A DNA stretch of 44,287 nt from Prevotella sp. (GTDB taxonomy: Bacteria; Bacteroidota; Bacteroidia; Bacteroidales; Bacteroidaceae): NCBI GenBank assembly GCA_017524385.1, contig JAFWSS010000246.1, forward strand, positions 1-44,287. Reading direction: 5' to 3'. Below the pieces are notes generated by a model, which searched no databases, was not told the origin of the DNA, and worked only from the letters and a program-made list of their open reading frames with translations. The number at the start of each line of letters is the position of its first letter. Position 1 is the first letter of the stretch. Made by a program: the position numbers and the translations under genes. This document shows, one piece after another, positions 251 to 13,522 of the stretch.

Positions 251-2881
251 CTACGATGACTTACCACTCACTATCTTCTTTATTTCAAAGAGTTTGTTGA
301 GTGCTTCCATAGGTGTGAGATGATTGATGTCAATACCCAATATCTCGTCACGCACCTGGCAAAGCACCGGGTCGTCAAGTTGGAAGAAATTGAGTTGCAT
401 CCCCTCCCTTGACCTGTTGATCGACTGTGCAGAAGGCTTTCCCACGGTGCCTACATTGCTGTTGTCTGATTCCAATTGCTTCAAGATGACATTAGCCCTC
501 CTAACTATGCTCTTCGGCATACCGGCAATCTCAGCAACGTGGATGCCGAAAGAATGTTCGGAACCTCCTTTTGCCAACTTGCGCAGGAAAATCACCTTGT
601 TGTCTATCTCCTTCACACTCACATTGTAATTCTTGATGCGAGGGAAATTCTTCTCCATCTCATTGAGTTCGTGATAGTGGGTGGCGAAAAGCGTCCGCGC
701 CTTCGCCCTGGCATGCTCGTGCAGGTATTCCACGATGGCCCAGGCGATGGAAATGCCGTCATAGGTCGATGTGCCGCGGCCTAGTTCGTCAAACAGCACC
801 AACGACTTGGGAGAGACATTGTTGAGAATGTTGGCTGCTTCGGTCATTTCCACCATGAAAGTCGATTCACCAACAGAAATGTTGTCCGACGCTCCTACAC
901 GAGTGAATATTTTGTCCACCAAGCCTATTTTCGCGCTCTCTGCTGGCACGAAACACCCTATCTGGGCCAATAGCACTATCAAGGCAGTTTGACGCAACAG
1001 CGCCGATTTACCAGCCATGTTCGGACCTGTGATGATGATGATCTGCTGACGCTCGTTATCAAGATAGATGTCATTGGGTACATATTTCTCTCCCAAAGGC
1101 AACTGTGTCTCAATCACAGGATGCCTGCCTTGCTTGATGTCGATAACTTCTGTATTGTCGATGACGGGTCGGATGTAACGTCGCTCTTCAGCAACATTGG
1201 CAAACGACAAGAGACAGTCGATGCGAGCCAGAAGATTGGCATCGATCTGGATGGCGGGAATGTATTCCTGAATAGCCATCACCAATTCGTTGAACAATTT
1301 TGTCTCCAACGACAATATTTTGTCCTCAGCACCAAGGATTTTCTCCTCATACTCCTTCAACTCCTGAGTGATATACCGCTCAGCCTGAGCCAAGGTCTGC
1401 TTTCTCACCCATTCAGCAGGCACCATGTCCTTATAGGTGTTGCGCACCTCAAGATAGTAACCGAAGACATTGTTGTAACCTATCTTCAACGAGGATATGC
1501 CGGTGGCGGCTGACTCACGCTCCTGAATCTTCAACAAGTATTCCTTGCCATGGTAGGCGATGTTGCGCAACTCGTCGAGTTGTTCGTTCACACCATTGTT
1601 GATGACGTTACCCTTGTTCACCTGCAATGGAGCATCTGCTTGTATTTCCCGGGCGATGCGGTCACGAATGGAATGGCACAAGTTGAGTTGTTCGCCTATC
1701 CTTTTCAAAACAGGGTTGTCGGCGTTCATACACGCACCTTTCACCACTTCTATGGCTTGCAGAGCAACCTTCAGTTGGATTACTTCCCGCGGAGAGACAC
1801 GACCCACAGCAACCTTGGAGATGATGCGTTCCAAGTCGCCTATGAGATGCAGTTGATCGTCAACGCATTGGCGGAATGTCGGCTCCCTATAGAAATAGTC
1901 CACAATGTCGAGTCGCTCGTTGATGGGCTTCTCATCCTTCAAGGGGAACACCAACCAGCGACGAAGCATCCTGCCGCCCATAGCGGTGATGGTGCGGTCG
2001 ATGACATTGAGCAGTGACATACCGTCGTCCTGCATCGTGTTCAACAGTTCCAACGAACGGATGGTGAATTTGTCAAGCCTTACAAATTTATCCTCTTCGA
2101 TGCGAGAGATGGAGGTGATGTGGCTGATTTGAGTGTGTTGCGTGAGTTCGAGGTATTGAAGGATGGCACCTGCCGCCACAACACCGTTGTTCAAATGGTC
2201 GACACCGAACCCCTTAAGGCTCTTTGTCTGAAAATGCTTGAGAAGCTTGGGCCTTGCTGTTGACTCTGTGAACACCCAGTCATCCAACTCAAAAACACAG
2301 TATTTCGAACCAAAATAACGCTCAAAAACGCCTTTGTGGGCACGGTCGTAAAGCACCTCCTTGGGTTGGAAGTTGCCCATCAGTTTCTCCACGTAGTCGT
2401 AAGTGCCTTCTCCTACAAGGAATTCACCTGTGGAGATGTCGAGAAAAGACACTCCGCAACCCGTCTTTCCGAAATGGATGGCAGAGAGAAAATTGTTTTC
2501 CTTGTAATTGAGTACATTGTCGCCCATCGCAACGCCAGGGGTCACCAGTTCAGTGATGCCCCTCTTCACCAATGTCTTGGTGAGTTTGGGGTCTTCCAAC
2601 TGGTCGCAGATGGCTACACGCCGACCTGCCCTGATGAGTTTAGGCAGATAGGTGTCCAAGGCGTGATGGGGAAATCCAGCCATCTCGGTGGCGGCTGTCT
2701 GGCCACCATTGTTTCGCTTGGTGAGCGTGATGCCAAGGATTTTGGATGCTGCAACGGCATCCTCGCAATAGGTCTCATAGAAATCACCACATCTGAACAG
2801 CATCAGCGCATCAGGGTGTTTCGCCTTCAGCGTGAAAAACTGCTGCATCATCGGGGTCAGTCCTTTTTCTTTCTTTGCCAT
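251..2881 (-). CDS. mutS: DNA mismatch repair protein MutS
   Basis: MutS recognises mispaired and unpaired bases and uses ATP to start methyl-independent mismatch repair with MutL. The 876-residue product is full length. Visible landmarks are the N-terminal mismatch-reading motif GDFYE (about residues 32-36), the connector, lever and clamp domains, the C-terminal Walker A GPNMAGKS, and a Walker B/signature region with [14 protein letters not shown] and ATHYHEL. The frame stays open upstream to an ATG at 2935, but the start at 2881 ([10 protein letters not shown]) matches the family, and a TAccTTTG promoter element lies at 2900-2907, inside the longer version. It is transcribed away from the candidate replication origin and is followed by a strong hairpin terminator. 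Confidence 0.97.
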
Positions 2882-2899
2882 AGAGTGATTTGTGTTTTG

Positions 2900-2907
2900 C
2901 AAAGGTA
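2900..2907 (-). promoter_or_regulatory. -7 promoter element of mutS
   Basis: On the minus strand this reads TACCTTTG, matching the Bacteroidetes TAnnTTTG element, 19 bases before the mutS ATG at 2881. No TTTG was found at the expected -33 position, so only half the promoter is supported. Confidence 0.55.
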
Positions 2908-2940
2908 ATGAAAAAATCCGTTTTCCCCATCTCATTCATC

Positions 2941-3300
2941 ATTATTTCTTTTTTTATTCTTTTAAAAGAAAAAAAGAAGATGATGATGATATGGTGGGGA
3001 AAAGTGGATAAAATGGTTGAAATACACTTATTAGGTTTAATCAACGGTTATCAACCAACACTTGTTGATAATAATCTATTGAATATAAACTTTTTACATA
3101 CTTATCCACAGTTTTTTCAACAGGTGGATAAGTCCCTGTGGATGATGTTTTATGATTTCAAGTGTGGATAAAGTTTTCATAAACGAGTATTTTGTTACAC
3201 TTTTATCCACATTTTTCAGGCTCTTTGAAGGGAATATGGATAAGTTGGAAGTTATTATGAAGTTATTGGTGAGTTATCCACACTCTATTGTGGATAACTT
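2941..3300. other. oriC: Candidate chromosomal origin of replication (oriC): DnaA-box cluster with AT-rich tract
   Basis: Five perfect DnaA boxes (TTATCCACA) occur at 3102-3110 (+), 3163-3171 (-), 3203-3211 (+), 3274-3282 (+) and 3289-3297 (-). One-mismatch boxes lie at 3003-3011, 3063-3071, 3123-3131 and 3137-3145, all on the minus strand. A very AT-rich tract at about 2941-2981 could be the unwinding element. No gene fits the 458-bp gap. By hand count the plus strand has more C than G in mutS (1261-1500: G 40, C 68) but more G than C to the right (9181-9360 in leuS: G 67, C 42; 4681-4740 in porZ: G 21, C 9). Both sides are minus-strand genes, so gene direction does not explain the switch. 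That this is the real oriC is inference. Confidence 0.65.
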
Positions 3301-3339
3301 TACTTAAATTTCACAAGTTTCGGCATCAAGTATATCCCT

Positions 3340-4329
3340 TTAACTCCCCTTTAACTCCCCTTCTTTGATTTTGGTTATTCCGTATGTGATGACTGTTGCT
3401 GTGAGGAAAACGAGGATGAAAGTGATGATGACCTGCCAATAATGCCCTGAGTAGGAGAATCCCATTTTTTTGAGTGCGAGGCAGACTGCCATAGGTGTTG
3501 CTCCACAAATGAAATAATATGTCAAGGAGTGTCTTCCTGTAAATTGCAAGAGGGCATTGTCGGGCAGATGACGGCATACACCCACAATCAACACGGCTCC
3601 GGCCATTCCATCCACCAAGAGCACTGCAAATGAACCTACGTTGATGGGTTCCATTGTCAGTGTCATGTCTGCGGATGTCACCATCCATTTGATTCCCACG
3701 ATGACCAAGGCAAGAATGATGAGTATTCTTGGTTGTTGAAAGTGGGATAGCAGTTTTTTTTTTCTGCACATCATACCTGCGAAAAGGAAAAACAGCATCA
3801 TCAAGGCATTCTGCCAACACCAGATGTTGATGTCGTGCAGGAAGTCGGTGGAAACAAAATGGTAGATGGCGGCAATGAGAAGATAGGGTAGGGAGCAGCA
3901 GCCGAAAATCCAAAAGGTGATGTTTTTGCGTTTCGAGGAGCAATGGATGATGATGGCGAAAAGCATCTCTGCCAACATCAGTGCGGCGAGAAACCAGGAT
4001 GCGTGTCCTGTGATGACAGACATCAAAGTTTCCACCAACGTGGTATCGTCTCTCACCATGGCTTTTGGGAAGGCGATGGCTGTGGTGAAAATGAAATAGG
4101 GTAGGGTGATGCCTTTCACGATGGAGACAATCTTGTGTCGGAGGTCAAAGGTGTCGTAAGATGTTTTTATGAACAAATATCCGGAGATGAATACGAATGC
4201 GAGTAGTGAGTTGTCTACATGATAGGCGTAAGGGATGATTTCCTCTCCTGTGTAATATATTTCTGTGTGGAGGAGTAAGATGGACACCATGCAGAGTCCC
4301 CTGGCAATGTCGATTTTGGTGTCGCGCAT
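3340..4329 (-). CDS. Acyltransferase family 3 integral membrane protein
   Basis: The 329-residue protein has about ten hydrophobic membrane segments and begins MRDTKIDIARGLCMVSILLLH. The D-I-x-[RK]-G-x-x-x start followed by a membrane-embedded His is typical of acyltransferase-3 (OafA/NodX-like) proteins, which move acyl groups onto sugars of lipopolysaccharide or other surface glycans. The substrate cannot be read from sequence. It starts 2 bases after the porZ stop and is the last gene of the leuS-yitT-rdgB-porZ operon. Its stop codon lies inside an 11-bp tandem duplication (TTTAACTCCCC twice, about 3340-3361), so the extreme C-terminus may vary between strains. The family call is firm; the function is not. 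Confidence 0.85.
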   Translation of the reverse strand: MRDTKIDIARGLCMVSILLLHTEIYYTGEEIIPYAYHVDNSLLAFVFISGYLFIKTSYDTFDLRHKIVSIVKGITLPYFIFTTAIAFPKAMVRDDTTLVETLMSVITGHASWFLAALMLAEMLFAIIIHCSSKRKNITFWIFGCCSLPYLLIAAIYHFVSTDFLHDINIWCWQNALMMLFFLFAGMMCRKKKLLSHFQQPRILIILALVIVGIKWMVTSADMTLTMEPINVGSFAVLLVDGMAGAVLIVGVCRHLPDNALLQFTGRHSLTYYFICGATPMAVCLALKKMGFSYSGHYWQVIITFILVFLTATVITYGITKIKEGELKGS

Positions 4330-4331
4330 GG

Positions 4332-6614
4332 TTATCTGACGATGGCTATCTTGCAGACTGTTCCTTTCTTCCCATCGCTGGTGGCTGTTTGGACCATGTA
4401 GACACCCGAGGCCACCCTTTTTCCGCTGTCGTCACAACCATCCCAGGTGAAAGTGCCGCCATTGCTGGTGCCTTCGGCCACCAGGGCGCCGTTTGCAGTG
4501 ACTATCTTCACATCGGCGTTCATCGTCAGTCCTGTCACGGTGATGAGTCCTGTATAGTCTGGTTTGACGGGGTTGGGATAGGCATACACCGTGTTCTTGT
4601 TCATCGTCTCACTGGTGGCGGTGGCGTCGCTCATATAGGAGCACAAACCATTGTCGGTACCGAAGAAAACCTCGCCTGTCTCATCGTTGATGGTGATGGC
4701 TTCGATGTTGTCGGAGAGCAACTGGCTGTTTGATGACAGGAAATGCTGCAGTTGGGTCATGTTGTCGGCACTGATGAGATAGACACCGTTGCCATTGGTG
4801 CCAAACCATTTCCTATTGCCTCCATCAACGGCGATGCAGTTGATGTCGGCACCTCCCAGAAGGTAGTCGGCGAAATTGGTGCCGTCATTGCGTGGCACCT
4901 TGATTTGTTGCAAGACGCTGTTGGAACCGTTGTCTATGTCGTTGGCTGGGAGCATCACCGGTCCTACGCTGGTGCCTATCCAGATGTTGCCGTCCTTGTC
5001 TTCCGCCACGCACCTCACGCCGGTGGGTTCCAGTCGGGTGCCGTCTTCGTTCACAAAGGTGGTGTAATGGTTCATGGCGCTGTTGGAAGGGTCGAGACAA
5101 TAAAACGAGGGTGTGTCCCAATGGTTGTTGACAAACCACAATAATCCTCTGCTGTCCAATATCATTCCTCTCATATTGCCTAGGCTGCGGGTGCCTTCCA
5201 TCAGGTTGTTCTTGTGGTGTTCTTCCCATGTGCCGTCTGTCTTGAGTTCCAGGATGGATTTCTCCAAGGCTTGGCTGTTGAGGCACCAAAGGTTGCCTTG
5301 CTTGTCAAACTTGATGCCCAGTGCGAGGACATAGTTCTTGCTTTCGCTGTCCAAGGCATATCCCAAAGGACTGTTGTCGGGATTGTAGTGCTTGACGAAT
5401 TTTCCATCCATATATTCGTAGAGTCCTGTCCTTCCACCCACGAAGATATGCTTGGGGTCTTTAGGGTCGATGTCGAGGCATGTCATATCCTCAAAACGGT
5501 TGCCTACGATGTCTTTCAAGTCGTCTTCATAGATGGTCCATTGGTCGTTGCTGTAGGTTTGTGTGACGGCCTTTCTGAATAGTTCGGCGGCAGAGTCGAA
5601 ACCTCCTCCGCAAGTGAAGAGGGTGTGGTTGACATATTTCAACACGCCGAAATAGTTGTATTTGGGTCCATCGGGGTTGATGTCGGTGGTTTGAAAGGAG
5701 ATTTCGTTGTTGTCATCCAAAATGAAGGAACAGAGTTTTCCATCGTCTTGATTGCTCCAGAAGCAATGGTTCTTGTTGTCGTAGGCCACTGACTTGAAGG
5801 TGACATCCTCTTGTTGCAGGAAGGTGATGTCGTTGATGGAGTTGAGCACCATTATGCCATGGTCTTGTACGAAAAGCAGTTTCTCTCCAGAGATATTGCA
5901 TGAGTTGAAGGCATATTGCTGGATGAGTTTCCATTCGTCTCCGTCTTTGCAATAGATGTTTCCGTTGTTGGCGGCAAGCAGTTTGCCTCCGAAATCGAAA
6001 AGATGGTCCACCTGGAGGGTGCTTTCACTCGTCCAATTGTTTTTATCCAGCAGGTTGTCGTTAGTGTTGCCTTTGATGATGCCTTCTTCACAAATCGCAT
6101 AGATGTGGTTGCCGAAGATGGTGGCTTCCTTCACCTTGCGTCCCAGGTTGTAGGTGGCGGTGATCTCGGCTTCGGCGACATTGATTTTCAGAATGCCGAA
6201 ATTGGTGGCCACGAAGGCGAAGGTGCCGCTTGTCTTGATGCTGTTGATGGTTTTGTCCACCGTCATCGACTTGTTGTAGTAGTCGGAGATGTTCACCACG
6301 TTGCCTTTGCTGTCGAGCAAGTCGATGTTGTGGTTCTCATAGAGGATGACGAGTCGTTTTGCTGCCTTGCAGTATGCAATGTGTGAGATGTTGCAGTCGC
6401 TGAGCGTGTTCATCTTGTCATAGGTTTCCACGCTGTGGTCGTTGCTGTTGTAGGAGAAGAGGCCTTTTGAACTGAGCACATACACCATCTTGTCGACAGG
6501 CACTATTTCCGTGATGTCGCCATAGGCCAGGTAACTGGTCCATGAGCCGATGGGTCCGCCTTTTGCAAAGGTGAGCATGGCGATGAACAGTAGTGTTGTG
6601 ATCAGTCTCTTCAT
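4332..6614 (-). CDS. porZ: Type IX secretion system attachment-complex protein PorZ
   Basis: The 760-residue protein has an N-terminal signal peptide (first ~18 residues, ending AKGG), a long region of beta-propeller repeats of the two-component-regulator type (for example GNLWCLNS, GNIWIGTS, RKWFGTNGNGVY), and a C-terminal secretion-sorting domain of about 80 residues starting AYPNPVKPDYTG. Length and order fit PorZ of Porphyromonas gingivalis. There PorZ works at the cell surface with PorU, PorV and PorQ, where cargo loses its sorting domain and is joined to anionic LPS. Proteins carrying only propeller repeats are the main alternative. It follows rdgB by 6 bases and precedes an acyltransferase gene. 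Its presence implies that the organism has a type IX system. Confidence 0.85.
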   Translation of the reverse strand: MKRLITTLLFIAMLTFAKGGPIGSWTSYLAYGDITEIVPVDKMVYVLSSKGLFSYNSNDHSVETYDKMNTLSDCNISHIAYCKAAKRLVILYENHNIDLLDSKGNVVNISDYYNKSMTVDKTINSIKTSGTFAFVATNFGILKINVAEAEITATYNLGRKVKEATIFGNHIYAICEEGIIKGNTNDNLLDKNNWTSESTLQVDHLFDFGGKLLAANNGNIYCKDGDEWKLIQQYAFNSCNISGEKLLFVQDHGIMVLNSINDITFLQQEDVTFKSVAYDNKNHCFWSNQDDGKLCSFILDDNNEISFQTTDINPDGPKYNYFGVLKYVNHTLFTCGGGFDSAAELFRKAVTQTYSNDQWTIYEDDLKDIVGNRFEDMTCLDIDPKDPKHIFVGGRTGLYEYMDGKFVKHYNPDNSPLGYALDSESKNYVLALGIKFDKQGNLWCLNSQALEKSILELKTDGTWEEHHKNNLMEGTRSLGNMRGMILDSRGLLWFVNNHWDTPSFYCLDPSNSAMNHYTTFVNEDGTRLEPTGVRCVAEDKDGNIWIGTSVGPVMLPANDIDNGSNSVLQQIKVPRNDGTNFADYLLGGADINCIAVDGGNRKWFGTNGNGVYLISADNMTQLQHFLSSNSQLLSDNIEAITINDETGEVFFGTDNGLCSYMSDATATSETMNKNTVYAYPNPVKPDYTGLITVTGLTMNADVKIVTANGALVAEGTSNGGTFTWDGCDDSGKRVASGVYMVQTATSDGKKGTVCKIAIVR

Positions 6615-6620
6615 ATGGGT

Positions 6621-7214
6621 CTATTCCTTGAGGTATTGCGCGAGTTTCTCCACTGCCTTGGCCCGGTGTGAGATGCGGTTCTTGATGTCCATGCCAAGTT
6701 GTGCGAAGGTGGTGTCGTAGCCTTCAGGTTGGAAGATGGGGTCGTAGCCGAATCCCTCGCTGCCGTGCCGCTCACGGGTGATTTGTCCTTCTACTATGCC
6801 TTCGAAGGTTCTCACGTCTTTCGCTTCGTGGGTGCACTCGTCTATGATGATTAACGCGATGACGGTGCGGAATCTTGCATTGCGATTGTTATTTTCTCCT
6901 AATTTGTGCAACAATTTTCGCATATTGGCTTCGCTGTCGTGTTCTTCGCCTGCATATCTGGCGGAAAACACGCCTGGTTCTCCATTCAGGGCGTCCACTT
7001 CCAGTCCGGTGTCATCTGCGAAACAACTGATATGATAGTGTTCATAGATGTATAATGCCTTCAGTAAGGCGTTTCCTTCCAGGGTGTCGGAGGTTTCCGG
7101 TATGTCGATGTGGCAGTCGATGTCGTTGAGCGACAGCACTTCAAACTGGTCTCCCAGGATGTCCTTGATTTCACTGAGTTTATGTGGGTTGTTGGTTGCG
7201 AATACTATTTTCAT
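6621..7214 (-). CDS. rdgB: Non-canonical purine NTP pyrophosphatase (RdgB/HAM1 family)
   Basis: This 197-residue enzyme hydrolyses dITP, XTP and ITP to the monophosphate and pyrophosphate, keeping deaminated purines out of nucleic acid. The start [17 protein letters not shown] carries the family's substrate-loop motif (T-N-N-x-x-K). [30 protein letters not shown] and SHRAKA follow in the usual order. The gene begins 35 bases inside the end of the upstream yitT-like gene, in another frame, which suggests coupled translation. porZ follows 6 bases downstream. The length is normal for the family and nothing is missing. Confidence 0.96.
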
Positions 7215-8163
7215 TGTCTTTCTTTTTTACTTTCACTTTCATTTCATCGAAACCTTCACCATAGACGCCGATGACGCTGCTCTGGCTTACAAAGGCGTTG
7301 GGGTCGATGGTCTTGATCAGTCGGAAGATGCTGACGCTCTCACGTTTCCTGGCAAGGATGCAAAGCACCTTCATGTCTTGTCCTGTATACCATCCATGGC
7401 CGTCGAGGATGGTGACGCCATGGTTCATCTCCGTGCCTATGGCGTTGGCGATTTCCTGGTATTTCTTGGAGAAAATGAAGAATTGCACAGACTCCCTTCT
7501 GGAGTTCATCACATAGTCGAGCATGACATTCTCCACCACAAGGGTGCAGAGGCCGAAGACTATTTTGTACAAAGCCTCTGTGACGGTGTAGTCGCGGGCG
7601 AAGATGAACATGGGAAAACTGGAGCCGATGATGACCAGGTCGACGAAGATGAGCACGGTGCCGAGCGACATGTTGTGGTATTTGTTGACGATGGCTGCCA
7701 CGATGTCTGTTCCTCCTGTACTGCCGTTGTGGAGGAAGACGATGGCCAGTGCCGTGCCCGTCATGCAGCATCCTATGATGAGCGACATGAAGTTCTCGTC
7801 GCCAAGGAGTTTTATCATCGTCCCGTCGTCGTTGGTCATCACCTCCTGGGCGACGCCGAGCGTGAGCGAGAGGGCGAAGATGGCATAGATGGTCTTCATC
7901 AAGAATTTCCATCCCAGGATTTTCAACGCCAGGGCCAACAGGATGAAGTTGATGATGAAATAGGTGTAGTTGATGGGTATGCCATGGCCGTCTCCGTTGG
8001 TGGCATAGAAGATGATGGCCGAGATACCCGTCACGCCTCCTGTCACTATTTCGTATGGAAGCAGGAAGCAGGTGTATCCCACCGTGTAGAGCAGGAGACC
8101 GAGGGTGATGAAGAAGTAGTCCTCGGCCTCTCTGAATAATTTGCTTTTTGTGTTGGTTGGCAT
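7180..8163 (-). CDS. YitT family membrane protein with C-terminal DUF2179 domain
   Basis: The 327-residue protein has five or six hydrophobic segments in the first ~210 residues, including the YitT signature around [15 protein letters not shown] and [22 protein letters not shown] soluble C-terminal domain (about residues 215-315, [20 protein letters not shown]) matches DUF2179. The family is widespread in Bacteroidetes and Firmicutes; its transport or signalling role is not settled. It starts 9 bases after leuS ends, and its last 35 bases overlap rdgB, so it belongs to the leuS operon. Confidence 0.9.
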
Positions 8164-8172
8164 ATGCCTTTT

Positions 8173-11034
8173 TTATTTCACCACTATGTTAACGATTTTC
8201 TTGGGCACGATGATGACTTTCATCACCTTCTTCCCGCTGATGTATTTGGCTGACCTTTCGTCGGCGAGAACGGCTTGCTCGATGTCGGCATTGCTGGCAT
8301 CCACGGGGAACAGCATCTGGTATCTTGCTTTTCCATTGAAGGAGATGGTGAGTTGCATCTGGCTCTCCACAAGGTATTTCTCGTCATATGCAGGCCAAGC
8401 GGCATCGCAAACCGAACCCTTCTCTCCAAGGGCTTCCCACAGTTCCTCGGCGATGTGAGGGGTGAATGGGGCGATGAGGGCCACCAGTTGGCGGAGCACC
8501 TCGCGGCTGTGGCATTTCTGCTGGGAGAGTTCGTTGACGGCAATCATGAAGGCGGCCACGGAGGTGTTGTAGGAGAAGGCTTCAATGTCTTGGCTCACCT
8601 TCTTGATGAGTTTGTGCAGGCTTTTGAGCATTTCGGGAGTGGCTGGCTCGTCGGTGACGGTCAGTTGGTCGTTGTCCCTGTCGTTGCCCCAGAAGAGTGC
8701 CCAGAACTTCTTGAGGAAGCGGTGGCAACCGTCGATGCCGTTGGTGTCCCAGGGCTTGCTTTGCTCCACAGGGCCGAGGAACATCTCATAGAGGCGCAGG
8801 GTGTCGGCTCCGAAACGTGCCACGATCATGTCGGGATTCACAACGTTGAACATGGATTTCGACATCTTCTCCACAGCTTGGCCGCAGATGTATTTGCCAT
8901 CCTCGAGGATGAATTCTGCATCGTTGAATTCTGGTCTCCATTTCTTGAATGCCTCGATGTCGAGCACGTTGGCATCAACGATGTTGACATCCACGTGGAT
9001 TTCGGTGGTCTTGTATTTGTCGATGAGGCCCTTGCTCACGAAGAGGGGTTTCTTGTCGTGGTCGTCGGTGTTGACGCGGTAGACAAAGTTGCTCTTTCCT
9101 TGTATCATGCCTTGGTTGATGAGTTTCTGGAAGGGCTCTTCCTTGCAGGAGTAGCCATAGTCGTGCAGGAACTTGTTCCAGAAGCGGGAGTAGATGAGGT
9201 GGCCGGTGGCGTGCTCCGTGCCTCCCACGTAGAGGTCGACGTTCTGCCAGTATTCATCCACGGTCTTGTCCACGAGTGCCTGGTCGTTGTGTGGGTCCAT
9301 GTAGCGGAGGTAGTAGGCCGACGAACCAGCGAAACCGGGCATGGTGTTGAGTTCGATGGGGAAGACGGTGACATTGTCGATGAGCGCCTTGTCCACGATT
9401 TCCTCTTTCACGGTGTCCCACGCCCATTTGGTGGCTCTTCCGAGTGGTGGCTCACCGGTCTCCGTGGGTTGGTATTTGTCGATTTCAGGCAGTTCGATGG
9501 GCAGTTTGCTTTCAGGAATCATCTGTGGCATGCCGTCCTTGTAGTAGACGGGGAAGGGCTCGCCCCAATAGCGTTGGCGTGAGAAGATGGCGTCGCGAAG
9601 GCGGTAGTTCACCTTCACCCTGCCAAGGTGCTGCTCGGCAACGTATTTCTTAGTGGCTTCGATGGCTTCTTTCACGGTGAGGCCGTTGAGGGAGAAGTCG
9701 CAGTAGGGCTTCACATCCTTTCGTGGCGAGTTGCACACGATGCCTTCCTTGGCATCGAAACTTTCCTCACTCACGTCGCATCCTTCGATGAGGGGGATGA
9801 TGGGGAGTGAGAAATGCTTGGCGAAGGCATAGTCGCGTGAGTCGTGGGCTGGCACGGCCATGATGGCTCCCGTGCCGTATCCGGCAAGCACGTAGTCGCT
9901 CACCCAGATGGGGATGGCCTCGCCGGTGAAGGGGTTGATGGCATAGGAACCGGTGAAGACACCGGTGACCTTCTTGTCTGCTATACGTTCGCGCTCGGTG
10001 CGTTTCTTGGTGGCTGTCAGGTAGTCTTCCACGGCTTGGCGCTGCTCTTTGGTGGTCACTTTCTCCACATACTCGCTTTCCGGGGCGAGCACCATGAAGG
10101 TGACGCCGAACATCGTGTCGGCGCGGGTGGTGAAGATGGTGAAGTCGATGTCGCTGTCCTTGACATGGAACACCACCTCTGCTCCTTCCGAGCGACCAAT
10201 CCAGTTGCGCTGGGTCTCCTTGAGGGAGTCGGTCCAGTCGATGGTGTCGAGACCGTCGAGCAGGCGTTGGGCATAGGCCGACACGCGGAGGCACCATTGC
10301 ATCATCTTCTTTTGCACCACGGGGAAGCCGCCGCGCACGCTGATGCCGTCCACCACCTCGTCGTTGGCAAGCACGGTGCCCAGGCCGGCACACCAGTTCA
10401 CCATCGTCTCTCCAAGGTAGGCGATGCGGTAGTTCATCAGTGTCTCTTGCTGCTGCTTGTCGTCCATGGCTTCCCATTCCTCTTGGGTAAAATGGAGTTC
10501 CTCGGTGCAGGCGGCGTCGAGGCCGTCGGTGCCTTGTTTTGCGAAGTGCTCCACCAGATACTCGATGGGCAGGGCGCGCTGCTCATTGTTGTCATAATAG
10601 GAGTTGAACATCTTTTGGAAGGCCCATTGAGTCCATTTGTAGTAACCGGGGTCGCAGGTGCGCACTTCGCGGTCCCAGTCGAAACAGAAGCCTATCTTGT
10701 CGAGTTGCTCGCGATAGCGGTTGATGTTGTTGACGGTGGTGATGGCGGGGTGCTGGCCGGTTTGTATGGCATATTGCTCTGCAGGAAGTCCATAGGCGTC
10801 GTAGCCCATGGGATTGAGCACGTTGAAACCTTGTTGTCTCTTGTAGCGTGCATAAATGTCGGATGCAATGTATCCTAACGGGTGTCCAACGTGAAGGCCT
10901 GCCCCGGAGGGGTAGGGGAACATGTTGAGCACATAGAACTTCTTACGGTTTTGGTCTTCGGTCACCTTGTAGGTCTTCCGTTCAACCCAGCGTTGCTGCC
11001 ACTTTTTCTCGATGTCGTTGAAATTGTATTCCAT
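8173..11034 (-). CDS. leuS: Leucyl-tRNA synthetase
   Basis: LeuRS charges tRNA-Leu with leucine. The 953-residue protein shows the class I HIGH motif as HVGH (residues 48-51, after PYPSGAGL), a CP1 editing insertion ([19 protein letters not shown] and a [16 protein letters not shown] stretch with the conserved editing Asp), the catalytic KMSKS (about 723-727) and an anticodon-binding C-terminal region. It is the first gene of the operon running to the acyltransferase. A TAACTTTG promoter element lies at 11099-11106, and a hairpin with a T-run lies further upstream (see 11130-11164). The length is typical of the family. Confidence 0.98.
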
Positions 11035-11098
11035 ATGTTTTTTAATCGTTTGTTGCTTGGAATGTCTATAATCTGTGCGCTTTCGCGCAATTTGCGTG

Positions 11099-11106
11099 CA
11101 AAGTTA
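11099..11106 (-). promoter_or_regulatory. -7 promoter element of leuS
   Basis: On the minus strand this reads TAACTTTG, followed by a leader of roughly 60 bases before the leuS ATG. No well-spaced TTTG was found at -33. The nearest, inside the hairpin arm, is about 24 bases away. Confidence 0.5.
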
Positions 11107-11129
11107 CAACAATCTCACCTTATAAAAAA

Positions 11130-11164
11130 GCAAAAGGCCACTTTTTTGAAAAGTGGCCTTTTGC
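11130..11164. terminator. Terminator-like hairpin between leuS and the divergent ATPase gene
   Basis: A perfect 14-bp inverted repeat, GCAAAAGGCCACTT and its complement, can be extended to 16 bp. Read on the minus strand it is followed by TTTTTT, so it has the form of an intrinsic terminator pointing toward leuS. Neither neighbouring gene ends here. The rest of the 320-bp gap holds only the two promoters. Confidence 0.7.
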
Positions 11165-11275
11165 AGATGGCTTTGTCTTTATATGGTTTTTATCTTTCTT
11201 CAGTTTCTCTTCATGTGATATGACAAGGCAAAATTAGAAAAAAAGCGCCATAGATTGAAAGCGTTGGGTGATTTT

Positions 11276-11306
11276 TTTGCTTTTTCCTTGGTTTTTGTTA
11301 TCTTTG
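11276..11306 (+). promoter_or_regulatory. Bacteroidetes-type promoter of the ATPase/nuclease-like gene
   Basis: TTTG at 11276-11279, a 19-base spacer and TATCTTTG at 11299-11306 match the full TTTG-N19-TAnnTTTG consensus. The ATG at 11355 lies 48 bases further on. This supports that start rather than the upstream in-frame ATG at 11268, which would precede the promoter. Confidence 0.8.
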
Positions 11307-11354
11307 CGTTTTGAAGTGAGGCATGAAGCCATAATTTCATACCAACTATTTATT

Positions 11355-12938
11355 ATGGGTCAATACATCAATTTGGGAAATGAAGGGTTTCAAAGAATCC
11401 GCAACAGCGAATATGTGGACAAGTCTGGACTGATAGCTGTTGTCAACAAAACGCTATTCACAGAGCAGTGTTTCAGTTGTGTCACCCGTTGTCGTCGCTT
11501 TGGCAAGTCTATGGCGGTGAAGATGCTATGTGCCTACTATGACCATTCGTGTGACTCTCGCAGTCTGTTTGCTGATTTGGAAATAGCTGGTCATCCTTCA
11601 TTTGAACATCATTTGAACAAATATCCCGTCATCTGCCTTGATATGACCAATTTTGTGACAAGATACCACGATGACGACATTGTAAGTCATATCGAGGAGG
11701 AACTGAAATCCGACATTCTTGAATATTATCCCGACGTTCCTGTCAGGGAAAAAGAGGATTTGATGGACTGTCTTGTTCGCATTGCCGGAGTTACAGGAGA
11801 GCGTTTTGTCTTCATTATAGACGAGTGGGATGCCATCTGCCGTGAGTTCAAGTCTGGTACGTCGGCTATGGACCGCTATGTCAACTGGCTGCGCCGGATG
11901 TTCAAGAGTTTGAATGCCAGCCAGGTTTTTGCAGGGGTTTATATAACAGGCATCTTGCCTATCAAGAAATATAAGACCGAGTCGGCACTGAATAATTTCA
12001 TTGAATATTCCATGGTGTCTCCGGGTGGCATGGCTTGCTATTTCGGTTTCACCAAGGATGAGGTGCGTGTTTTGGCAGACAAGTATGATATGGAATTCGA
12101 CGAGTTGGAGAAGTGGTATGATGGATATCAGATAGGGTTACAACCATCCATGTTCAATCCCAATTCAGTGATGAAAGCCATTGATCGTCAGTGGTGCGAA
12201 AGTTATTGGGCGAGTACGGGTGCTTTCGATGCCGTGGCTCATTACATCCAGATGAATTTCGAGGGACTGAAGGATGATGTCATCAAAATGCTCGCTGGAG
12301 GAAGTGTGAAGGTGAACACTACCAAGTTTCAGAATGACATGTCGATTGTCAAAAGTAAGGATGACGTGCTTACCGTGCTCATCCACTTAGGTTATCTCTC
12401 TTTCAATTGGCGCAAAAAAGATTGTTACGTGCCCAATTTTGAAGTGTCATGTGAGTTATCCAATGCCGTAGAGGAAACAGGATGGACCAATGTAGTGAAG
12501 GCATTGAAACAGTCTGAACAACTACTTCAGGCAACACTCGAGGGCGATGCTGAGGCGGTGGCGAGAGGGGTTGATGCAGCACACGATGAAAACACAAGCA
12601 TTCTCTCCTATAACAACGAGAATTCACTGGCTTGTGTGTTAAGCATCGCCTATTTTGCCGCCCGCAACGACTATGTCATCCATCGTGAGTTGGCTTCGGG
12701 AAAGGGTTTTGCCGACCTTGTATTGCTGCCAAGAAAGAATGTAGATTCTCCCGCCATCATCCTTGAACTGAAATATGACAAAGATGCCGACAGTGCCATC
12801 AACCAAATCCATCGTCGGCAATATCCTGTCAAGGTGGCTCAACATTGTGGCGAACTCCTCCTTGTGGGTATCAATTACGACAAGGAGAAGAAAATCCACG
12901 AATGTGAAATAGAATTGTGCAAGATGGAGTGCACTTGA
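11355..12938 (+). CDS. AAA-family ATPase with C-terminal PD-(D/E)XK nuclease-like domain
   Basis: The 527-residue protein belongs to a large Bacteroidetes family (AAA-ATPase-like plus DUF1703). It has the lead-in SEYVDKSGLIAVVN, a shortened P-loop RRFGKS (residues 47-52) and a Walker B-like IIDEWDA (about 144-150). Its C-terminal nuclease-like core has a conserved Asp in GKGFADLVLLP and the ELKYD motif. Biochemical function is not established; such genes occur in many variable copies and roles in DNA interaction or defence have been proposed. It is a single gene with its own promoter, on the opposite strand to its neighbours, so independent insertion is plausible. Start chosen from the promoter position. 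Confidence 0.85.
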   Translation: MGQYINLGNEGFQRIRNSEYVDKSGLIAVVNKTLFTEQCFSCVTRCRRFGKSMAVKMLCAYYDHSCDSRSLFADLEIAGHPSFEHHLNKYPVICLDMTNFVTRYHDDDIVSHIEEELKSDILEYYPDVPVREKEDLMDCLVRIAGVTGERFVFIIDEWDAICREFKSGTSAMDRYVNWLRRMFKSLNASQVFAGVYITGILPIKKYKTESALNNFIEYSMVSPGGMACYFGFTKDEVRVLADKYDMEFDELEKWYDGYQIGLQPSMFNPNSVMKAIDRQWCESYWASTGAFDAVAHYIQMNFEGLKDDVIKMLAGGSVKVNTTKFQNDMSIVKSKDDVLTVLIHLGYLSFNWRKKDCYVPNFEVSCELSNAVEETGWTNVVKALKQSEQLLQATLEGDAEAVARGVDAAHDENTSILSYNNENSLACVLSIAYFAARNDYVIHRELASGKGFADLVLLPRKNVDSPAIILELKYDKDADSAINQIHRRQYPVKVAQHCGELLLVGINYDKEKKIHECEIELCKMECT

Positions 12939-12953: not shown

Positions 12954-13070
12954 CTCGCCTCTTTATTGTACCCAAGCACGGTTATGCTCCGTGGTCTCTG
13001 CCTTGAAAGGGCAACGATCTATCTGATTAATCTACATGGGCATTTTTCATTCTTGGTACATATTTCCTTG

Positions 13071-13145
13071 TAGCGCCTGTGAGGTTCGAACTCACAATCA
13101 CACGCCTTGAGAAAGCGGTGTCTTATCCATTTCGACTAAGGCGCC
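13071..13145 (-). tRNA. tRNA-Glu (anticodon CTC)
   Basis: The acceptor stem GGCGCCT/AGGCGCT pairs over 7 bp, with a G-U first pair. The T-arm is GTGAG-TTCGAAC-CTCAC. The anticodon loop TTCTCAA gives CTC. The D-arm and the following GACACCGC resemble bacterial tRNA-Glu. Position 27-43 is a C/U mismatch and the variable loop is one base longer than usual. No CCA is encoded. The amino acid is read from the anticodon only. Confidence 0.75.
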
Positions 13146-13163
13146 ATTTTTATATTTTTTTTG

Positions 13164-13238
13164 TGCAGTATGAGCGATTCGAACGCTCACCTTTCTGCTT
13201 GGAGGGCAGGGGTGCTAAGCCAGTTACACCAATACTGC
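13164..13238 (-). tRNA. tRNA-Gly (anticodon TCC)
   Basis: A perfect acceptor stem (GCAGTAT/ATACTGC), D-stem GTGT/GCAC and T-arm GAGCG-TTCGAAT-CGCTC. The anticodon loop reads CCTCCAA, so the anticodon is TCC, but position 33 is C instead of the almost universal T. Position 27-43 is a C/A mismatch. No CCA is encoded. Confidence 0.75.
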
Positions 13239-13248
13239 ATTTTTTCAT

Positions 13249-13323
13249 TGGAGGACCAGGAGGGGTTCGAACCCTCGGCCTGTTGGTTAACAGCCAACTG
13301 CTCTACCTCTGAGCTACAAGTCC
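13249..13323 (-). tRNA. tRNA-Asn (anticodon GTT)
   Basis: The anticodon arm GTTGG-CTGTTAA-CCAAC is canonical and gives GTT. The T-arm is GAGGG-TTCGAAC-CCCTC. The acceptor GGACTTG/CTGGTCC has one T/T mismatch, shared with the tRNA-Met at 42011. CCA is encoded at the 3' end, unlike the neighbouring tRNA genes. Confidence 0.9.
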
Positions 13324-13340
13324 GTTTATATTCTTCTTTG

Positions 13341-13413
13341 CGGTCCCTACGGGAATCGAACCCGTCTCTCTTGAGTGACAGTCAATTATCCACACCATGC
13401 AGACTCAGAGACC
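13341..13413 (-). tRNA. tRNA-Asp (anticodon GTC), atypical core
   Basis: The acceptor GGTCTCT/AGGGACC, T-arm ACGGG-TTCGATT-CCCGT and loop CTGTCAC give anticodon GTC with the G73 discriminator expected for Asp. Position 8 is G rather than T and position 14 is G rather than A, so the usual T8-A14 tertiary pair is lost. Position 27-43 is A/G. No CCA is encoded. It may be a divergent working gene or a decaying copy. Confidence 0.7.
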
Positions 13414-13449
13414 ATTTCTTCATCATTCATTCAAAGACCGTTTTCCTTG

Positions 13450-13522
13450 CGGGGCTTACGGGAGTTGAACCCGCTCCGAACTGCGTGACAGGCAGACATC
13501 TTAGCCGTTTGACCTAAACCCC
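13450..13522 (-). tRNA. tRNA-Asp (anticodon GTC), second copy
   Basis: The acceptor GGGGTTT/AAGCCCC, anticodon arm CTGC-CTGTCAC-GCAG and G73 indicate tRNA-Asp. Position 8 is A rather than T and position 27-43 is T/T. The body is very different from the other GTC tRNA 37 bases away. No CCA is encoded. It is the first gene of the minus-strand tRNA cluster. Confidence 0.75.

Follow-up and report, generated by a model that had tools for sequence, protein, structure and literature searches.

A DnaA-box cluster between mutS and an acyltransferase gene as the very probable chromosomal replication origin of a Prevotella-like bacterium

Where does chromosome replication begin in a Prevotella-like bacterium, and does a cluster of DnaA boxes between two ordinary genes mark the place? 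The cluster lies in a stretch of 44,287 nucleotides, called here the window, which is part of a draft assembly of 272 contigs and 5,054,690 bases (5.05 Mb). A sequence-only reading had singled out as a candidate replication origin the 458-bp gap (2882..3339) between mutS (251..2881, minus strand) and an acyltransferase-3 family gene (3340..4329, minus strand). The porZ, ham1-like, yitT-like and leuS genes (4332..11034, minus strand) flank the proposed origin on the right. After following up this reading, we consider it very probable that the gap is the chromosomal oriC of this bacterium, which is called Prevotella-like after the named records with the most similar MutS. It had been described as free of genes, and this holds provided that the mutS start is the inner ATG at 2881, as is likely; the longest mutS frame, beginning at 2935, reaches into the gap, and the MutS models match from residue 26 of that frame onward. 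Farther to the right, between leuS and a tRNA cluster (12969-13522), an AAA-ATPase-like/PDDEXK_9 gene (11271-12938) is encoded on the strand opposite to its neighbours; the tRNA cluster has six genes by Rfam and five by ARAGORN (Glu, Gly, Asn, Asp and Asp).

Scored against the E. coli DnaA box consensus, the gap carries five perfect and five one-mismatch boxes between 3003 and 3297, spanning 295 bp, which bears out the five perfect boxes of the sequence-only reading and fixes at five its count of at least four one-mismatch boxes. The one-mismatch boxes are all on the minus strand, at 3003..3011, 3063..3071 (TTATCAACA), 3123..3131, 3137..3145 and 3235..3243, and the perfect ones (TTATCCACA) are found at 3102..3110 (plus), 3163..3171 (minus), 3203..3211 (plus) and in an inverted pair at 3274..3297, whose members start at 3274 (plus) and 3289 (minus) and stand 6 bp apart. 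Leading into this last pair are three AGTTAT units in 11-bp steps (3250..3277, plus strand), which may be weak DnaA sites. Such a cluster is far above chance expectation: Markov sequences modelled on the dinucleotide composition of 2936-3339 never contained more than 2 perfect boxes (20,000 sequences), against 5 in the gap, and for boxes with at most one mismatch 1,000 such sequences averaged 0.2 and reached 3 at most, against 10 in 2936-3339. The sixth perfect box of the window, at 13386, is inside a tRNA-Asp gene. In the whole 5.05-Mb genome there are 36 perfect boxes, and nowhere outside the gap do two of them lie within 1 kb, the search for a second cluster having covered perfect boxes.

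The frequency of the box as a word differs among genomes, TTATCCACA being 2–3 times rarer than its reversed letters in our genome (G000, 36 v 90), G158 (30 v 70) and G240 (36 v 102) and showing no such rarity in G016 (44 v 41), G024 (48 v 40) and G010 (49 v 44). Perhaps one clade avoids stray boxes, or the difference is mere word composition.

Clusters of DnaA boxes are not always origins. The cluster could be a DnaA-titration or regulatory site like datA of E. coli, or it could be a DnaA-regulated mutS promoter, given that the boxes are directly upstream of mutS, with the true origin elsewhere in either case. We judge this very unlikely; one argument against it is that perfect boxes do not cluster anywhere else in the draft genome. 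The contig that carries dnaA (C185) gives no better candidate: a dnaA-linked origin with its own cluster would have told against the gap, and all 28.4 kb of C185 hold one perfect box and no cluster. The encoded DnaA has the DnaA_N, Bac_DnaA (ATPase) and Bac_DnaA_C (C-terminal DNA-binding) domains, so the genome encodes the initiator itself. The separation of boxes and dnaA agrees with the remark of the sequence-only reading that in Bacteroidales oriC is often not next to dnaA, and with the consulted part of PMC4755523, where the oriC of Bacteroidetes is described as commonly far from that gene.

The AT-rich tract that had been noted beside the boxes is also confirmed. The GC content of 2936-3339 is 30%, its predicted duplex stability over 400 bp ties the window minimum to one decimal, and over 100 bp the predicted stability of the gap is within the lowest 0.2% of the window, as expected of an easily opened stretch. 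The least stable 100 bp (3007..3106) are the best candidate for a DNA unwinding element, of which an AT-rich imperfect palindromic tract at 2921..3003, pyrimidine-rich and then purine-rich with its centre at TTTTAAAA, is possibly a part. The palindrome score of this tract merely ties the largest of 30 shuffles. Of 18 clusters compared, six (window, G240, G093, G028, G012 and G017) have as their best palindrome an AT-rich pyrimidine/purine tract that is located at an end of the box array or next to it, beating 30 shuffles in two of the six (G240 and G028) and tying the largest in the window and G012; a conserved cruciform is not claimed. The alignment rows of G012, P. jejuni, G246 and L013, seemingly reverse-oriented, were left out of inference.

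A BLAST search of 2936-3339 against 40 genomes of the genus matched eight, our own included, the matches being driven mostly by the low-complexity AT tract. At the eight matched places in seven relatives, at least five boxes (at most one mismatch, within 700 bp) were found in G028, G012, G034 and contig C37 of G017, and 0 or 1 box each in contig C52 of G017, G030, G023 and G001.

The relatives tell us whether the join of mutS, boxes and acyltransferase gene is real and how far it extends. The assembly could have misjoined the mutS and acyltransferase sides at the boxes, being fragmented and having an estimated contamination of 6.56%, and the contigs of L013 and G246, where mutS also adjoins the boxes, end near them. 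Such an artefact is scarcely credible, however, given that the identical join is present in two other assemblies, namely G158, on a 224-kb contig with the whole order mutS, boxes, acyltransferase, porZ, ham1, yitT and leuS (MutS 95.9% identical), and G240, with the gene order of the window (MutS 97.6% identical). Elsewhere the neighbours differ. In G028 and G196 the boxes come after leuS, yitT, ham1, porZ and a gene resembling the acyltransferase (35-38% identical), with another ORF intervening; in G264 they come after porZ, and in G010, G017 and P. jejuni they are directly upstream of a DUF3108 gene. At L015, L017, L024, L035 and L063, leuS and mutS are divergent and 0.1-2 kb apart, and no group of at least four boxes was found in the locus examined. 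Adjacency to mutS is thus no general rule: among 80 MutS loci kept out of 592, four perfect boxes within 2 kb upstream were found in one (L013) and in none of the other 79, with 11 of the 80 having less than 2 kb upstream and 4 of these less than 200 bp.

The layout of the boxes themselves is partly conserved. The window's offsets 0, 21, 35, 61, 101, 172 and 187 are those of G240, and the offsets 0, 97, 102, 135, 187 and 201 are identical in G024, G016 and G093 and fitted within 1 bp by G010, except for the 102 box. Between the window and G024/G016 the match in spacing is partial, with 101 and 133 against 102 and 135 and the last pair about 15 bp nearer. The clusters of G024, G016, G010, G028, G158, G240 and P. 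jejuni (L023) resemble that of the window in their clustering, most of them with other flanking genes. A close inverted pair is common to the window, G010, G024, G016, G158 and G240, whereas a palindromic double box made of two overlapping one-mismatch boxes in G024, G016, G012 and P. jejuni is not among the boxes of the window.

An inverted pair of perfect boxes with a 4–7 bp spacer occurs in 18 of 276 genomes of the genus, our own included, and the reversed-letter control matched in one of the 276. The surroundings were inspected in 14 of the 18 (the other four being G000, G010, G024 and G016), and in 11 of these the pair is part of an intergenic stretch with at least five boxes, which in G075 form two groups of 3. 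Of the other three, G057 has 4 boxes at the pair, G263 has 3, at the end of a contig, and in G058 the pair falls within a gene of the sensor-kinase type. The pair was rejected as a general origin mark, with 258 of the 276 genomes lacking it. Close box triplets were also seen in hybrid sensor-kinase/AraC-type regulator genes of G057 and G058 (L222:12130-12152 and L223:9865-9887). Boxes with at most one mismatch number 26 in three clusters in L226 (G125, 9407-11327) and 22 in two clusters in L235 (G291, 4738-6188), and these serial clusters are possibly multipartite origins.

The sequence-only reading had also pointed to a change of the plus strand from C-rich to G-rich across the gap. The sign of the change stands, the skew being -0.01 to -0.07 (C-rich) over 1-2500 and about +0.1 (G-rich) from 3001, but its weight does not, since the left side contains a single gene, mutS, and the window's skew therefore proves little. 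Given that the window begins 2.9 kb left of the gap and that our genome is fragmented, the skew switch and the parS linkage were read in relatives. In the window and G158, genes of either orientation have C-rich third positions on their coding strand, so that raw skew mostly tracks gene direction, and we therefore fitted an orientation-corrected GC3 skew model with a coding baseline and a replication-strand term. The model was run on mechanically picked ORFs, which in places were overlapping frames (for example the plus-strand frame at window 7048, which lies over ham1 and yitT) that add noise to the fits.

In G158, where nearly all of the 224-kb contig was analysed with 212 breakpoints, the best breakpoints, 130 and 131 kb, are equal, there being no gene midpoint between them, and fall between mutS and the acyltransferase gene, with the boxes at 131.1-131.5 kb. 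A skew minimum away from the boxes would have spoken against the sequence-only reading, and the G158 optimum is instead this very interval; the second-best breakpoint region is at 112 kb (766.8 v 753.2). The improvement was equalled by 4 of 1000 permutations and by 0 of 300 in another run, figures that serve as a guide only, neighbouring genes being non-independent. In G024, a single contig sampled with 42 stretches and 360 ORFs, the two-point model places the origin best at 1.52 Mb on a 20-kb grid, with 1.48 Mb nearly equal and the boxes at 1.51 Mb, and the terminus at 0.10-0.16 Mb. A strand-composition switch is thus present at the corresponding sites of G158 and G024, and its coincidence with the cluster in both weighs against a titration site or mutS promoter. 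In favour of that explanation, G016 (41 stretches, 362 ORFs) is equivocal, its skew fitting 1.06 Mb slightly better than the box site at 0.66 Mb, which is a close second; at 0.48 Mb, G016 also has a further two perfect boxes separated by 45 bp.

The fit in G024 bears also on another explanation, in which a second replicon, and not the main chromosome, would have its origin at the cluster. Prevotella can indeed have a second chromosome, P. intermedia having two according to the portion of PMC4755523 consulted. Nonetheless, the G024 cluster, 18 kb from mutS, is at the fitted skew origin of a single 3.5-Mb contig, and the window contains mutS, leuS, gcpE, purE and rpoN-type genes together, all of which makes a second replicon extremely unlikely. 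Gene orientation counts against oriC: on the right side of the gap, from 3.3-25 kb, nearly all genes would meet the inferred fork head-on, and around the G158 site (contig C72) only 57 of 158 mechanically called ORFs are on the inferred leading strand, which we find unusual for an origin. The corresponding figure in G024 is 195 of the 360 sampled ORFs.

An oriC is usually found near parS, a nearness that is not strictly defining. We searched 11 genomes for sites like the parS 16-mer, allowing up to 2 mismatches. In G024, G016, G010, G028, G012 and G158 a single contig carries both the box cluster and parS, which lie 13-62 kb apart in six of six; these relatives have 8 parS sites with no more than one mismatch, and every one of them is linked to the boxes at this distance. 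In our own genome, G240 and G246 the boxes and parS are on separate contigs, our perfect parS pair being on C33, and G003 and G004, where the box cluster was not located, are outside the six-genome comparison. With the pattern reversed, each strand of a genome yielded 0-4 matches when up to 2 mismatches were allowed, and 2-mismatch sites therefore carry little weight. That the cluster of the relatives stays near parS while its flanking gene is not always mutS argues further against a titration site or a mutS promoter.

The box cluster, then, recurs while the surrounding genes reshuffle. Inversions around the origin suffice to explain the changed neighbours. An origin that itself hopped is a bolder reading, in which the origin of the genus would be a mobile cassette, its box layout fixed in part, that has moved from slot to slot among retained genes, such as the acyltransferase/mutS slot (window, G158 and G240) and, in G010, G017 and P. 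jejuni, a slot just upstream of DUF3108, with right-hand genes mostly head-on in this clade; we regard this as rather doubtful.

In summary, we observe the boxes, a duplex of low stability, perfect boxes that cluster nowhere else in the draft genome, and the layout, skew and parS linkage in relatives, and the agreement of the cluster with the G158 skew, the gene order and spacing in relatives and the nearness of parS supports the gap as a candidate replication origin. DnaA binding, the position of duplex opening and initiation at the gap are what we infer from them. Most likely, the ten boxes at 3003-3297 would be bound by DnaA made from a gene elsewhere in the genome, and the closely spaced inverted pair at 3274-3297 would be one of its anchors. 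DnaA would then form an oligomer and melt the AT-rich DNA at about 2930-3106, so that helicase could be loaded there and two forks could depart.

This provides a sequence-level candidate origin for a Prevotella clade in which looking beside dnaA fails to find oriC, and a known origin would aid the closing of genomes, the design of vectors and the use of read coverage to estimate growth rates. In fragmented Prevotella genomes, the box layout that recurs here and the nearness of parS may help to find oriC; the inverted pair alone, as a locator, marks just the 18 genomes counted above. Our literature search found no paper combining oriC, mutS and Prevotella.

Among known systems, the oriC of E. 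coli and that of B. subtilis have a box cluster beside an AT-rich unwinding region, and the cluster of the window likewise adjoins an AT-rich region. It differs from both in spacing and accessory sites, and a simple DnaA-trio pattern has no match in the gap; the B. subtilis oriC, moreover, flanks dnaA. The closest description is that of the first-chromosome oriC of P. intermedia OMA14, which, in the section of PMC4755523 consulted, measures 476 bp, has multiple DnaA boxes and a GC-skew transition, and is not near dnaA. The proposed origin belongs to another species and shares with it the multiple boxes, the skew transition and the location away from dnaA. With a Prevotella oriC away from dnaA thus already published in that source, the gap adds one more site to a kind that is already known, involving no new mechanism, and is well supported and unsurprising.
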